Source: Ectothiorhodospiraceae bacterium
GTDB taxonomy: Bacteria > Pseudomonadota > Gammaproteobacteria > Nitrococcales > Halorhodospiraceae
NCBI GenBank assembly: GCA_003552345.1
Contig: PULM01000031.1
Coordinates: 1-33,181 of the forward strand
DNA: 33,181 nucleotides
Direction: 5' to 3'
In this document: positions 18,985 to 24,295 of the stretch, piece after piece
Layout of the letters: each line of letters begins with the position of its first letter
How positions within the stretch are numbered: position 1 is the stretch's first letter
Made by a program: the position numbers and the translations under genes
Notes under the pieces: model-generated
Seen by the model: the letters and a program-made list of their open reading frames with translations, nothing else
What the model was told of the DNA's origin: nothing
Databases searched by the model: none

Positions 18985-20445
18985 ATGCTCGATCGCCTCT
19001 TCCGAACCGCCACTGCGCTGCTGATGGCGGCACTGCTCCTGACCACCGCGGCCCTGCAGCCGTTGCAGGCGGAGCGGGTTCAGCTGCCGCAGCTCGGCAC
19101 CCCCGGGGCCGACGCCCTGCCGGTGCACAAGGAGCGGGAGCTTGGCGCCGAGATCATGCGCCAGGTCCGCCAGCACCTGCCGCTGCACGAGGACCCGGAG
19201 AGCAACGAGTACCTCCAGAGCCTGGGGCAACGGCTGGCGGCGCACAGCAATGCGCCCGGGTTCGGCTACAGCTTCTTCCTGGTCGAGGACGACCAGATCA
19301 ACGCCTTCGCCCTGCCCGGCGGATACATCGGGCTGCACACCGGGCTGATCCGCGAGACCCGCACCGAGAGCGAGCTCGCCGGCGTCGTCGCCCACGAGAT
19401 CGCCCACGTCACCCAGCGACACATTGCCCGGCAGTACGCCCAGTCCCAGCAGCTCAATCTGCAGACCGCCGCCGCCGTGCTGGCGGCCATCCTGGTCGGC
19501 TCGCAGAACCCGCAGGCCGGCAGCGCCGCGGCCATGGCCGGCATCGCTGCCCCCATCCAGCAGCAACTCGGCCACTCCCGGGCCCATGAACAGGAGGCCG
19601 ACCGGGTTGGCCTGCACAACCTGGTGGCCGCGGGGCTCGACCCCCAGGGCATGCCCGGATTCTTCGAGCGCCTGGCCGACGCCTCACGCTTCGCCGAGGA
19701 CCCGCCGGAGTACCTCAGCACCCACCCGCTGACCGATCGACGCCTCAACGAGACGCAGCGCCTGGCCGAGCGCCTGGAGGGCGGCGCCGTCTACGAGAGC
19801 GGCCACCACGCCTTCATCCGGGCCCGGCAGCAGGTATTCAGCCATGAGCAGCGCAGCACCAGCGCCGTCGCCTTCATGCAGGATCAACTGCGGCGCAGCG
19901 CCGACAATCCCACCGAGCGGGCCGCCGCCCTCTACGGCCTGGCCCTGGCGCTCTCGCGCGAGTCCGGGCAGCACAGCCAGGCGCTGGCGCTGCTCGATAC
20001 CCTGAGCGCCATCGAGGGTGAACGGCTTTACGTCCTGCTGGGCCGCGCCGAGATCCTGCGCGCCGCCGGCGACACCGAGCAGGCACTGACCACCTATCAG
20101 GAGGCCCGCTCCCTCTACCCGGGCAGCTGGGCGACCACCTACCGCCTGGCCGAGACGCTCCTGGATACCGGCGACGCCGAAGAGGCCCGCCGACTGCTGG
20201 CCCGCGCCACCCGCGGGTCCGACGGCTCGACACAGCTGCTTCGCCTGCTCGCCGACGCCGCCCACGCCTCCGGGCGCGAGGCCGAGGGCTACATCGCCCT
20301 GGCCGAGCACTACCGCGCCCGCGGCGAGCACAGCCTGGCCGTGGCGCAGCTCAACAATGCCATCCGCCACGCCGGCGAGGATCGCTACCAGCGCGCGCGC
20401 GCCGAGGCCCTCAAGGAGCGCTGGACACAGCGCAACGCGGACTAG
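18985..20445 (+). CDS. bepA: M48-family periplasmic metalloprotease/chaperone with TPR region, BepA (YfgC)-like
   Basis: Signal peptide; HEIAH zinc motif (GVVAHEIAHVTQRH); C-terminal TPR-like repeats. Confidence 0.9.
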   Translation: MLDRLFRTATALLMAALLLTTAALQPLQAERVQLPQLGTPGADALPVHKERELGAEIMRQVRQHLPLHEDPESNEYLQSLGQRLAAHSNAPGFGYSFFLVEDDQINAFALPGGYIGLHTGLIRETRTESELAGVVAHEIAHVTQRHIARQYAQSQQLNLQTAAAVLAAILVGSQNPQAGSAAAMAGIAAPIQQQLGHSRAHEQEADRVGLHNLVAAGLDPQGMPGFFERLADASRFAEDPPEYLSTHPLTDRRLNETQRLAERLEGGAVYESGHHAFIRARQQVFSHEQRSTSAVAFMQDQLRRSADNPTERAAALYGLALALSRESGQHSQALALLDTLSAIEGERLYVLLGRAEILRAAGDTEQALTTYQEARSLYPGSWATTYRLAETLLDTGDAEEARRLLARATRGSDGSTQLLRLLADAAHASGREAEGYIALAEHYRARGEHSLAVAQLNNAIRHAGEDRYQRARAEALKERWTQRNAD

Positions 20446-20497
20446 CCAGTGCTTCCGCGACGTTAGTAGACTGCCGCGGCACCCTGGGAGCGCGGTC

Positions 20498-21295
20498 ATG
20501 GCGTCCGGCGAAGCTTTCAACCACGAATGGATCCTGCGCATGGGCGATGCCACGCCCGTCGGCGTGCTGTGGCGCGCCCTGCAGGCTGACGGCGGAAGCC
20601 CGGGGCCGGCCTGCGACACGGCCTTCCAGGGCCTGCGCAGTCAACTCGACACCACCCTGAGCGGGCTGAACGCCGTGGCAACCTCGGCTGGCGCCACCGG
20701 CGAGGACGGCGTCGACCCGGCGAACGAGACCCCGCAATGGCTGACGCCGTGGCTGCAGACCCTCGCCCGCCTCGGCCCCTGGCAGCACGGCCTGGAGCGC
20801 ACCCAGGGGCTGCAGATCGCCCTGGATCGCTACCTGCATGCCCACGTCGAGTGCGCGCGAATCCTGCTGGATTCGGTCCGCGCCGGCCTCGACACCCTGG
20901 AGCAGCGCCTGCAAATGGCCGCGCAGGACCCGCAGCGGCCGCTGCCCGAGGACTACCGTACGCTCTACGAGTGGTGGCTTACCGACAGCGAGGCCTGCTA
21001 CGAGCAGGCCCTCGCCTCGGCGCAGTGGGCCGAGGCCTTCGGTCGCCTGGCCAACGCCACCACCGCCCTGGTCGATCGTTACCAGAAACAGCTCGACGCC
21101 GGCCTGCGCACCCTGGACCTGCCCAACCGGGATGACTTCCTCGACACCCAGCGCCGCCTGGTTGAGCTCGAGCGCAGCCAGCGGCGCAACACACCGGGCG
21201 ACGAGCTGGCCGCCCTGCGCAATGAGGTCGCCCGCCTGCGCGATGAGGTGGGCGCCCTGCGGGCGGAACGCACACCGGGACACCGGGAGCGGTGA
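20498..21295 (+). CDS. phaE: Class III PHA synthase subunit PhaE
   Basis: 265 aa; helical protein whose stop (TGATG) overlaps the phaC start; LPEDYRTLYEWWLTDSEACYEQALASAQWAEAFGRLANA fits PhaE. Confidence 0.82.
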   Translation: MASGEAFNHEWILRMGDATPVGVLWRALQADGGSPGPACDTAFQGLRSQLDTTLSGLNAVATSAGATGEDGVDPANETPQWLTPWLQTLARLGPWQHGLERTQGLQIALDRYLHAHVECARILLDSVRAGLDTLEQRLQMAAQDPQRPLPEDYRTLYEWWLTDSEACYEQALASAQWAEAFGRLANATTALVDRYQKQLDAGLRTLDLPNRDDFLDTQRRLVELERSQRRNTPGDELAALRNEVARLRDEVGALRAERTPGHRER

Positions 21296-22335
21296 TGGCG
21301 CAGTCGCCATTCGACCACCCGCTGCATGACTGGCAACGCCGCCTGATCGAGACCCTCGAGCAGGCGGCGGAACTGCCCGTGGACACCCGTGGCGCCACCC
21401 CCTTCACCCACCACGGCGAGGTGGGCCCGGGGATGCACCTGCGCCGCTACGCCCCCCAAGCGGCTACCGGGCAACGCCCGGTGCTGATTGTCTACTCGCT
21501 GGTCAACCGCCCCTTCATCCTGGACCTGACCGAGCGCCGCTCACTGATCGCCGCCCTGACCCGGGCCGGGCACCCGGTCTACCTCCTCGACTGGGGTTAC
21601 CCGAAAGGCGCCGACCGCTTCCTCGACCTGGGCGACTACATCGACGACTTCCTGGCCACCGCCGCCGAGGAGGTCGCCGCCAGAGAGGGCGCCACAGCGG
21701 ACCTGCTTGGGGTCTGCCAGGGGGGCGTGTTCGCGCTGTGTCTGGCCGCGCTGCAACCGCAGCGGGTCCACCGACTGGTGAACCTGGTCACACCGGTGGA
21801 CTTCCACACCCCCGGGGACCAGCTCAGCCGTATGGCACAGGGGGTCGACTTCGATCAGGCGGCGCAGACCCTCGGCAATGTCTCGGCGGAATGGCTCAAC
21901 AGCGTCTTCGTCGCCCTCAAGCCCTACCGACTGTTGGCCCAGCGCTATATGGAGCTGCCCGAGCTGGCAGACCACCCCGAGGCCCTCCACGACTTTCTGC
22001 GCCTGGAACGCTGGATGTACGACAGCCCGGATCAGGCAGCGACCGCCTTCGCCGAATTCGGCCGCGAATGCTACCAGCGCAACGGTCTGCTCAACGGCAC
22101 CCTGACCCTCAACGGCCGGCCGGTGCGCCTTTCCGCCATCGAACAGCCGGTGCTCAATGTCTACGCCGAGCAGGACCACCTGGTCCCGCCAGCGGCAGCG
22201 CGCGCACTCGGCGCCCATGTCGGCTCCACGGACTACGGCGAACTGGCTTTCCCGGGAGGGCATCTGGGTGTGTTCATCAGCCGCCGGGCTCACGCGGAGC
22301 TGCTGCCGCGGATCGTTGCCTGGCTCGCGGAGTGA
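21295..22335 (+). CDS. phaC: Class III poly(R)-hydroxyalkanoate synthase subunit PhaC
   Basis: Lipase-like box GVCQGG; LVNLVTPVDFHTPGDQL; ERWMYDSPDQA; catalytic-type AEQDHLVPP and GGHLGVFIS. Confidence 0.95.
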   Translation: MAQSPFDHPLHDWQRRLIETLEQAAELPVDTRGATPFTHHGEVGPGMHLRRYAPQAATGQRPVLIVYSLVNRPFILDLTERRSLIAALTRAGHPVYLLDWGYPKGADRFLDLGDYIDDFLATAAEEVAAREGATADLLGVCQGGVFALCLAALQPQRVHRLVNLVTPVDFHTPGDQLSRMAQGVDFDQAAQTLGNVSAEWLNSVFVALKPYRLLAQRYMELPELADHPEALHDFLRLERWMYDSPDQAATAFAEFGRECYQRNGLLNGTLTLNGRPVRLSAIEQPVLNVYAEQDHLVPPAAARALGAHVGSTDYGELAFPGGHLGVFISRRAHAELLPRIVAWLAE

Positions 22336-22438: not shown

Positions 22439-22463
22439 AAAAAAAACCCCCTCAAAGAGGGGG
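22439..22463 (-). terminator. Strong rho-independent terminator on the minus strand
   Basis: Minus strand CCCCCTC-TTT-GAGGGGG followed by T8. Confidence 0.92.
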
Positions 22464-22607
22464 CAAGGAGTTGGCGACATAGGTCTCCAGGGAGGAGACG
22501 CCGCCAGGAGGAGACCGGCTAACAAAACGTTGGCTCCCTCGGGAGCCCTACCGCTGACTCACCCGCATCCGCGATCGCGCGCTTCGAGTGATTCGGCGTT
22601 GTTGCTA
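22439..22607 (-). ncRNA. Candidate small RNA in the phaC-phaB intergenic region (about 169 nt)
   Basis: Own sigma70 promoter (TTGACA-17 nt-TATCAT) and U8 terminator; hairpins GGCTCC-CGAG-GGAGCC and GTCTCC-TCCCT-GGAGAC; duplicated GTCTCCTCC motif; no credible ORF. Confidence 0.65.
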
Positions 22608-22613
22608 CGCAAC

Positions 22614-22642
22614 ATGATAGCCTCGTCACATTGCGCTGTCAA
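22614..22642 (-). promoter_or_regulatory. Sigma70 promoter for the candidate sRNA
   Basis: Minus strand TTGACA (22637-22642), 17-nt spacer, TATCAT (22614-22619). Confidence 0.75.
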
Positions 22643-22694: not shown

Positions 22695-23441
22695 CTAGAA
22701 GCTGCAGAACTGCCCGCCGTTGACCGGCACATTGGCCCCCGTGATGTAGCCGGACTCATCGGCCACCAGGAAGGCGATGACCCGGGCGATCTCCTCGGGC
22801 TCGGCCATGCGTCCGGCCGGGATCTGGGCGACGATCTGCTCACGCACGTTGTCCGGGATCGCCGCCGTCATGCTGGTCGCCACGTAGCCCGGCGAGACGG
22901 TGTTCACCGACACCCCCTTGCGCGCATTCTCCTTGGCCAGGGCCATGGTGAAGCCGTGCATGCCCGCCTTCGCCGCGGAGTAGTTGGCCTGACCGAACTG
23001 CCCGGTCTGACCATTGACCGAGGCGACATTGACGATGCGCCCGAAGCCGCGATCCCGCATGCCGTTGAGAAACTGGCGCGTGACGTTGAACACGCTGTCC
23101 AGGTTGATGTCGATGACATCCTGCCAGTCCTTCTGTTCCATCTTGTGGAAGAAGGCATCGCGGGTAATCCCGGCAAGGTTGACCAACACCTCGACCTCAC
23201 CGTACGTCTCGGCCAACTGCCCGGCCATCCGCTGGCAGGATGCGTAATCCGCCACGTTGCACTCCACGTAGCCGACCTCGTGGCCCTCCTCGCGCAGCTG
23301 CGCCTGCCACTCGTCGATGCGCTCCGCCTTGGCGTCCACGCAAGTGGTAACCACGCGATATCCCTGCGCGGCGAGTTCGCGACAGACAGCGGTGCCAATC
23401 CCACCGTTGCCTCCGGTTACCAGGGCCAAACGACCTGCCAT
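22695..23441 (-). CDS. phaB: Acetoacetyl-CoA reductase
   Basis: SDR fold MAGRLALVTGGNGGIGTAVCRELAAQGYRVVTTC; NVASVNGQTGQFGQANYSAAKAG catalytic region; C-terminus NVPVNGGQFCSF; PHA locus context. Confidence 0.94.
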   Translation of the reverse strand: MAGRLALVTGGNGGIGTAVCRELAAQGYRVVTTCVDAKAERIDEWQAQLREEGHEVGYVECNVADYASCQRMAGQLAETYGEVEVLVNLAGITRDAFFHKMEQKDWQDVIDINLDSVFNVTRQFLNGMRDRGFGRIVNVASVNGQTGQFGQANYSAAKAGMHGFTMALAKENARKGVSVNTVSPGYVATSMTAAIPDNVREQIVAQIPAGRMAEPEEIARVIAFLVADESGYITGANVPVNGGQFCSF

Positions 23442-23516: not shown

Positions 23517-23573
23517 TGCATCGCAGCATCTGCTGCGCTTACGAAGCTTATGCTGCGATGCAGCGAGTGTCAA
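23517..23573 (-). promoter_or_regulatory. phaB promoter with candidate PhaR operators
   Basis: Minus strand TTGACA-CTCGCTGCATCGCAGCA(17)-TAAGCT; inverted TGCATCGCAGCA (23517-23528) and TGCTGCGATGCA (23551-23562). Confidence 0.65.
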
Positions 23574-23706: not shown

Positions 23707-24240
23707 CTAGTCGCCCTGCGACTCGCCGCCGTCCTGATCCTGACGGTGGCGCCCGGGTCCGCGGTTGGAGGCGGGCGGATCCTCGAAGCCGCCCCCCTCC
23801 TCTTCACGGCCGCTGTCCAGCCCGCTCATCTGCCGCCACAGGGCCAGATTCCGCTCCGCGAACTGGGTCATGATGTTCATGGGGTTGTGATCCATGAACT
23901 CCCGGGTGCGCTGCTGGAAGACCCGCTGCTGATCCGCCCAGAGCTCCAGGCTCTTCTCCAGATAGCTGGTGAGCATGTTCTGCATGTTGCCGCCGTAGGC
24001 GCGGATCAGCTGCGCCAGCAGCTGACTAGAGAAGATCGGCTCGCCCTCTTCCTCCTCCTCGCTGATAATCTGGAGGAGGATGCTGCGGGTGATATCCTCG
24101 CGGGTCTTGGCGTCAACCACCTGGAAATCGACGCTCTCGAGCACCAGCCGCTTGACGTCCGCCAGCGTGATGTAGCTCGAGATCGCCGTGTCGTAGAGAC
24201 GGCGGTTGGGATACTTCTTGATGATCCGGGTATCTGACAT
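23707..24240 (-). CDS. phaR: Polyhydroxyalkanoate synthesis repressor PhaR
   Basis: N-terminal PHB/PHA accumulation regulator domain RIIKKYPNRRLYDTAISSYITLADVKRLVLESVDFQVVDAKTREDITRSILLQII. Confidence 0.96.
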   Translation of the reverse strand: MSDTRIIKKYPNRRLYDTAISSYITLADVKRLVLESVDFQVVDAKTREDITRSILLQIISEEEEEGEPIFSSQLLAQLIRAYGGNMQNMLTSYLEKSLELWADQQRVFQQRTREFMDHNPMNIMTQFAERNLALWRQMSGLDSGREEEGGGFEDPPASNRGPGRHRQDQDGGESQGD

Positions 24241-24266: not shown

Positions 24267-24295
24267 ACCGTATGCTGCAGTGCATAGAGTGTCAA
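24267..24295 (-). promoter_or_regulatory. phaR promoter with candidate autoregulatory PhaR operator in the spacer
   Basis: Minus strand TTGACA-CTCTATGCACTGCAGCA(17)-TACGGT; same architecture as the phaB promoter. Confidence 0.6.

Follow-up and report, generated by a model that had tools for sequence, protein, structure and literature searches.

A conserved small RNA gene in the polyhydroxyalkanoate locus of an Ectothiorhodospiraceae bacterium and its probable control by PhaR

The 33,181-nucleotide stretch of DNA analysed here (the window) carries, on its minus strand, a gene for a small RNA (sRNA) belonging to a conserved, uncatalogued family that is probably a PhaR-controlled gammaproteobacterial counterpart of MmgR, with a different structure and promoter geometry. 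The anatomy of the gene, its conservation, covarying structure, operator, and synteny, together with the occurrence of the same operator before phasin genes, lead us to read it as a PhaR-repressed sRNA; its transcription, the binding of PhaR, the direction of control, the dependence on Hfq, and the targets are what we infer from these features. It is likely that the sRNA acts in trans, pairing with Shine-Dalgarno (SD) regions as a translational brake linked to storage. PHB metabolism already offers one precedent of PhaR regulation of an sRNA, MmgR from alphaproteobacteria, and, if our reading is correct, a structurally distinct family in halophilic and related gammaproteobacteria would indicate that PhaR recurrently drives an RNA brake. 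The family would then provide a tractable test of how granule formation and translation are coordinated, as well as a means of influencing bioplastic production in halophiles.

Anatomy and conservation of the sRNA gene

The gene comprises the following features, all on the minus strand.

22637..22642, minus strand: -35 box TTGACA, read from the sequence; TTGAC(A/G) is kept in relatives
22614..22619, minus strand: -10 box TATCAT, after a spacer of exactly 17 nt; TATCA is kept in the sampled members of the genus
22600..22614, minus strand: PhaR-type operator TGTTGCGTAGCAACA, its first base being the last of the -10 box; spans the likely start site
22439..22607, minus strand: predicted sRNA transcript of about 169 nt, from promoter-terminator spacing, fold (z = -2.92), and conservation in the order
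22507..22516, minus strand: seed GGUCUCCUCC, conserved, predicted to be single-stranded, complementary to SD sequences
22472..22506, minus strand: post-seed hairpin with outer stem UGGCGGC/GUCGCCA and inner stem GUCUCC/GGAGAC, from fold and covariation
22439..22464, minus strand: intrinsic terminator CCCCCTC-TTT-GAGGGGG-T8 with a U8 tail, ending at 22439; covarying helix

The start of the transcript was placed about 7 nt past the -10 box. A preliminary description of this DNA had proposed an sRNA gene served by a promoter and a terminator of its own, and each element it listed, i.e. TTGACA and TATCAT at 17 nt, about 169 nt without a convincing ORF, and a terminator ending in T8, was found again on the minus strand. 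A promoter scan of 18 kb gave this one sigma-70-like site and no other, against a mean of 0.8 in shuffled sequence; taken alone, this match is within chance, but its conservation in relatives is, from the sequences compared, beyond chance. The terminator ranks first among 10 terminator-like sites, and none of 200 shuffled sequences folds as stably as the 169-nt RNA.

The presumed seed lies in the first of two copies of GTCTCCTCC (22515-22507 and 22499-22491, minus strand). Both CUCCUCC copies of the preliminary description, which had placed them in or near loops, are present, but only the first is single-stranded in the predicted fold and conserved; most of the second is contained in the GUCUCC/GGAGAC stem, and relatives (G003, G005, and family f2) have lost or altered it. 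UCUCCUCC is invariant across the 11 sequences of alignment A2 and is not part of any conserved stem in the model, so that GGUCUCCUCC has the properties of the proposed C/U-rich anti-SD seed: it is conserved, unpaired in the predicted fold, and complementary to SD sequences. The tetraloop hairpin GGCTCC-CGAG-GGAGCC described earlier also exists, but it belongs to the variable 5' half and recurs only in the two closest relatives, in one of them imperfectly. Longer homologues from other genera and families (L009, L013, L016) have a common 5' domain, GGCAAAAAA..GGGAG..CTCCC, and GCGCTCTTCTT occurs in some of their 5' halves; the RNA of the window has neither.

By nucleotide search, the RNA was found in its own genome and in all 8 other sampled members of the genus, for a total of 16 of 59 genomes, with the 3' 85 nt as its best-conserved part. 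A first MAFFT alignment of mixed families misaligned the f2 seeds, and the first covariance model was therefore built from family f1 only and extended by model search. The resulting model R1, which covers the 3' module (the last ~83 nt) and leaves the promoter aside, detects this module in 30 of 51 genomes of the order (E ≤ 0.001), the weakest of these matches, which lack the module, being probably false. Among 35 confident sequences, both sides changed at 12 of the 19 base pairs, including 5 of the 6 pairs of the terminator helix, in an alignment that was fitted to the structure and whose pair counts thus lean toward it. Covariation of the structure in the same 35 sequences reached 0.185, compared to at most 0.077 in the slid control, a value attained by none of 500 shuffles; the 11 close sequences alone gave no significant covariation signal. 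The preliminary description had regarded a promoter and terminator not conserved in relatives as evidence against its proposal, and both are conserved. By comparative evidence the sRNA gene is real; that it is expressed, we infer.

A small-protein gene is exceedingly improbable at this position. Short ATG/GTG frames are present by chance, but no reading frame is conserved across the relatives compared, the conservation of the module is at the level of base pairs, and the distance between operator and seed ranges from 41 to 169 nt between species.

Several copies of the sRNA occur in some genera, a few of them without operator. In one genome, two tandem copies follow phaR-phaB (L079, G016:C1:513152 and 513482), and the first of them has no good operator; another genome (G019) has up to five matches. 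Weaker relatives are found in other Gammaproteobacteria: similar RNAs in G488, G317, and G412 (L178, L180, L182), and in G346, G292, and G223 (L181, L185, L199), combine GUCUCCUCC with a GAAAGG/CCUUUC-type hairpin and a terminator. Those of G346 and G292 adjoin phaR, and near-operator sites are seen in G346 and G223. A pattern scan of named genomes returned mainly Ectothiorhodospiraceae MAGs and Methylonatrum kenyense; four other matches (two Streptomyces, one Brachybacterium, and one unclassified Pseudomonadota MAG) are possibly due to chance.

The PhaR-type operator and the PHA locus

The genes surrounding the sRNA were identified with Pfam and NCBIfam models, and two of their promoters contain sites related to the operator.

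22695..23441, minus strand: phaB, acetoacetyl-CoA reductase (TIGR01829); the sRNA follows directly downstream
23707..24240, minus strand: phaR, polyhydroxyalkanoate synthesis repressor (TIGR01848 above cut-off, PF07879 and PF05233)
21292..22335, plus strand: phaC, class III PHA synthase (best model TIGR01836, just under cut-off), convergent with the sRNA
20357..21295, plus strand: phaE, class III PHA synthase (PF09712; NCBIfam TIGR01834 below cut-off)
23551..23565, minus strand: PhaR-type site CGCTGCATCGCAGCA in the phaB promoter; its operator score of 14.0 is the second-best in the window, the sRNA site scoring 23.6
24271..24286, minus strand: PhaR-like site TATGCACTGCAGCATA in the phaR promoter, just past TTGACA, with core TGCACTGCA

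The position between phaC and phaB given in the preliminary description is correct and can be refined: phaB is on the same strand as the sRNA, phaR lies upstream of phaB, and phaE-phaC converge on the sRNA from the plus strand. This neighbourhood is kept in related genomes, with phaR at most 2.3 kb from the sRNA in 25 of the 28 genomes with clear matches and phaR-phaB-sRNA as the usual order at homologous loci. PhaR itself is encoded in the genome studied here, and across the order 52 of 54 genomes have PF07879.

A feature missed by the preliminary description is that the -10 box leads directly into the palindrome TGTTGCGTAGCAACA. In the promoter alignment, this palindrome takes the form TGTTGC-NNN-GCAACA or CTGC-NNN-GCAG, at the -10 box or a few bases past it. 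This palindrome, at -10/+1, fits the published PhaR operator CTGCNNNGCAG, known from R. sphaeroides (PMC12542648), and the exact CTGCNNNGCAG is found in the sRNA promoters of G002 and G008. Perfect TGYTGCNNNGCARCA occurs upstream of 26 of the 45 model matches, which were found without use of the promoter, against a shuffle expectation of 0.02% for each. The operator is absent from 8 of the 35 confident module matches, namely sibling copies elsewhere, one copy on a cut contig, and that of G027, which adjoins phaR yet has no operator.

Only four perfect copies of the palindrome exist in the genome studied here: one at the sRNA and three ahead of phasin genes, of which one gene has two copies and another has one. 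Both phasins were confirmed as PF09361. Across the genus, phasin genes carry TGCNNNGCA, mostly as two copies 27 bp apart. These double sites stand some 50-130 nt upstream of the start codon (L019, G000:C183:28534-28575; L021, G000:C202:8926; L223-L242), a conserved double-operator design. Other perfect palindromes in G005 and G008 are not clearly situated before genes; one of them, at 749011 in G005, overlaps an apparent hfq reading frame, recognised by eye.

All of these observations suggest that the sRNA gene is probably under PhaR control. The suggestion of a link to PHA control in the preliminary description thus appears far better founded, through operator, synteny, and phasin operators, than could be seen at the time. 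It could be argued that some other regulator binds the palindrome and that the sRNA merely adjoins phaR, given that the motif was assigned from a consensus published for other classes. We judge this quite unlikely, since the same site precedes the phasin genes, most of which across the genus have the 27-bp repeat, weaker sites with a similar core precede phaR and phaB, and CTGCNNNGCAG is the PhaR consensus of R. sphaeroides, and the PhaR of S. meliloti binds promoters of phasins and phaZ as well as, in EMSA, that of mmgR (PMC12542648).

Another view, that the element simply represents the phaB 3' UTR and terminator, with no separate gene, is very unlikely. Both are on the same strand, the gap from the phaB end to the -35 box is short (22695 to 22642), and readthrough could contribute. 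Nevertheless, a near-consensus promoter with its operator is kept across families, the interval between phaB and this promoter varies, as does the 5' half of the RNA, and sibling copies exist away from phaR-phaB. A separate, PhaR-repressed gene is the reading we retain.

Proposed mechanism and candidate targets

In the absence of PHB, PhaR would occupy the palindrome and block RNA polymerase, because the site overlaps both the -10 box and the start. In the species that have been studied, PhaR is released by PHB granules. The sRNA should therefore accumulate with PHB: as granules form, PhaR would be titrated away and the sRNA would be made along with the phasins. It would present GGUCUCCUCC beside a hairpin and a terminator with an Hfq-type U-tail, an hfq gene being present in the genome, and the seed may pair with SD regions, slowing the translation of a set of mRNAs that probably includes phasin or central-carbon genes. 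The sRNA would in this way be a post-transcriptional brake, reporting the storage status of the cell to the translation machinery.

A candidate phasin target is phasin 2. In three close species its ribosome-binding site pairs with the seed through 10 bp and a single bulge, at -14 to -16.6 kcal/mol, and in G005 it ranks 5th of 212 sampled genes; outside these three species the pairing is weaker. Duplex energies of a longer seed with PHA genes were not distinct from those with 23 genes of the window, and no conserved specific target was found among the 212 sampled G005 genes and the relatives compared. The earlier proposal of a trans-acting, SD-targeting sRNA for PHA or carbon storage is borne out, as far as sequences can indicate, for the seed and the PHA link, but target prediction did not add a conserved specific target to it.

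It is a realistic possibility that a PhaR-controlled, SD-targeting sRNA has its real function outside PHA metabolism, with PHB status retuning genes of carbon metabolism, the TCA cycle, and nutrient uptake, as for the Neisseria NmsRs or Caulobacter SisA-D. Being a consensus anti-SD sequence, the seed might bind many mRNAs; the NmsRs repress TCA genes via two anti-SD stretches (PMC5362039), phoU of two relatives (G005 and G006) forms 9 bp with the seed without a mismatch, and paralogous sRNA copies exist without a PhaR site. On the other hand, the location at phaR-phaB and the operators shared with phasins suggest at least a link to PHA.

phoU and pstB were top-ranked in the 300-kb G005 sample (212 genes) and were rejected as targets because the pairing is not conserved: that of the phoU start region is confined to G005 (L248) and G006 (L263), and that of pstB to G005.

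Comparison with known sRNAs

At Rfam gathering scores, neither the window nor 19 related loci matched any known family, and the covariance model search that had also been proposed as a check found, within the order, the homologues described above. The Rfam scans are also what bears on sX13 of Xanthomonas, named in the preliminary description. The best sub-threshold match is anti-hemB of Burkholderia (RF02837), through CUCCUCCCUG and the terminator, with 22 bits (E 0.007) for a cut-off of 49.5; by name this RNA is antisense to hemB, a context not found at the sRNA locus.

The closest functional likeness is to alpha-r8/MmgR of Sinorhizobium meliloti (RF00519), which has a PhaR-type promoter site, a C/U-rich anti-SD stretch, a U-tail terminator, and a link to PHB. 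The MmgR promoter carries a PhaR site, and MmgR lowers phasin protein and PHB, (PMC8401924); at RF00519 loci generally, TGCNNNGCA is present within 70 nt upstream in 17 of 30, where 1.2 would be expected. The comparison with MmgR in the preliminary description is therefore apt for function and control, but does not extend to membership of the family, as the sRNA scores 20.4 bits against a gathering score of 41. MmgR is about 77 nt in length, compared to about 169 nt, and the 5' halves differ. Where the RF00519 core is UUUCCUCCCU, the second copy in the window reads UCUCCUCCCU, but that copy is not conserved in relatives. In the MmgR promoter the dyad is located between the -35 and -10 boxes (PMC8401924), whereas the operator of the sRNA overlaps the -10 box and the start, and the sRNA gene, unlike MmgR, is situated in the phaR-phaB locus.

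NmsRA and NmsRB, the Neisseria siblings, are described as sRNAs with anti-SD C/U stretches that occur as sibling copies and repress the translation of metabolic genes, and in this they resemble the sRNA; the parts of PMC5362039 used here do not describe PhaR control. RF02278 (Betaproteobacteria toxic small RNA), which covers the Burkholderia double-hairpin sRNAs, shares a GUCUCCUCC-like start, a hairpin, and a terminator hairpin, but is about 60 nt in length, and the sRNA scores 16.8 bits against its gathering score of 50. The broad model R2 finds 9 alpha-r8 and 4 RF02278 loci (13 of 35) at the correct place, with weak E values of 0.0002 to 0.11 that may stem from the terminator and C/U content. 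Common descent with the alpha-r8/RF02278 RNAs is possible. More tentatively, PhaR control of short anti-SD RNAs might be an old or repeatedly evolved proteobacterial circuit, in which alpha-r8/MmgR, the present family, and some RF02278 RNAs would be variants of one PHB-granule-sensing switch acting as a translational brake; we consider this conceivable but somewhat doubtful. A PhaR-type core is found at one of the three RF02278 loci above cut-off. At the RF02278 locus L091 (G077:C1:3667838), a perfect operator-type palindrome, TGTTGCGTCGCAGCA, lies about 50 nt upstream.
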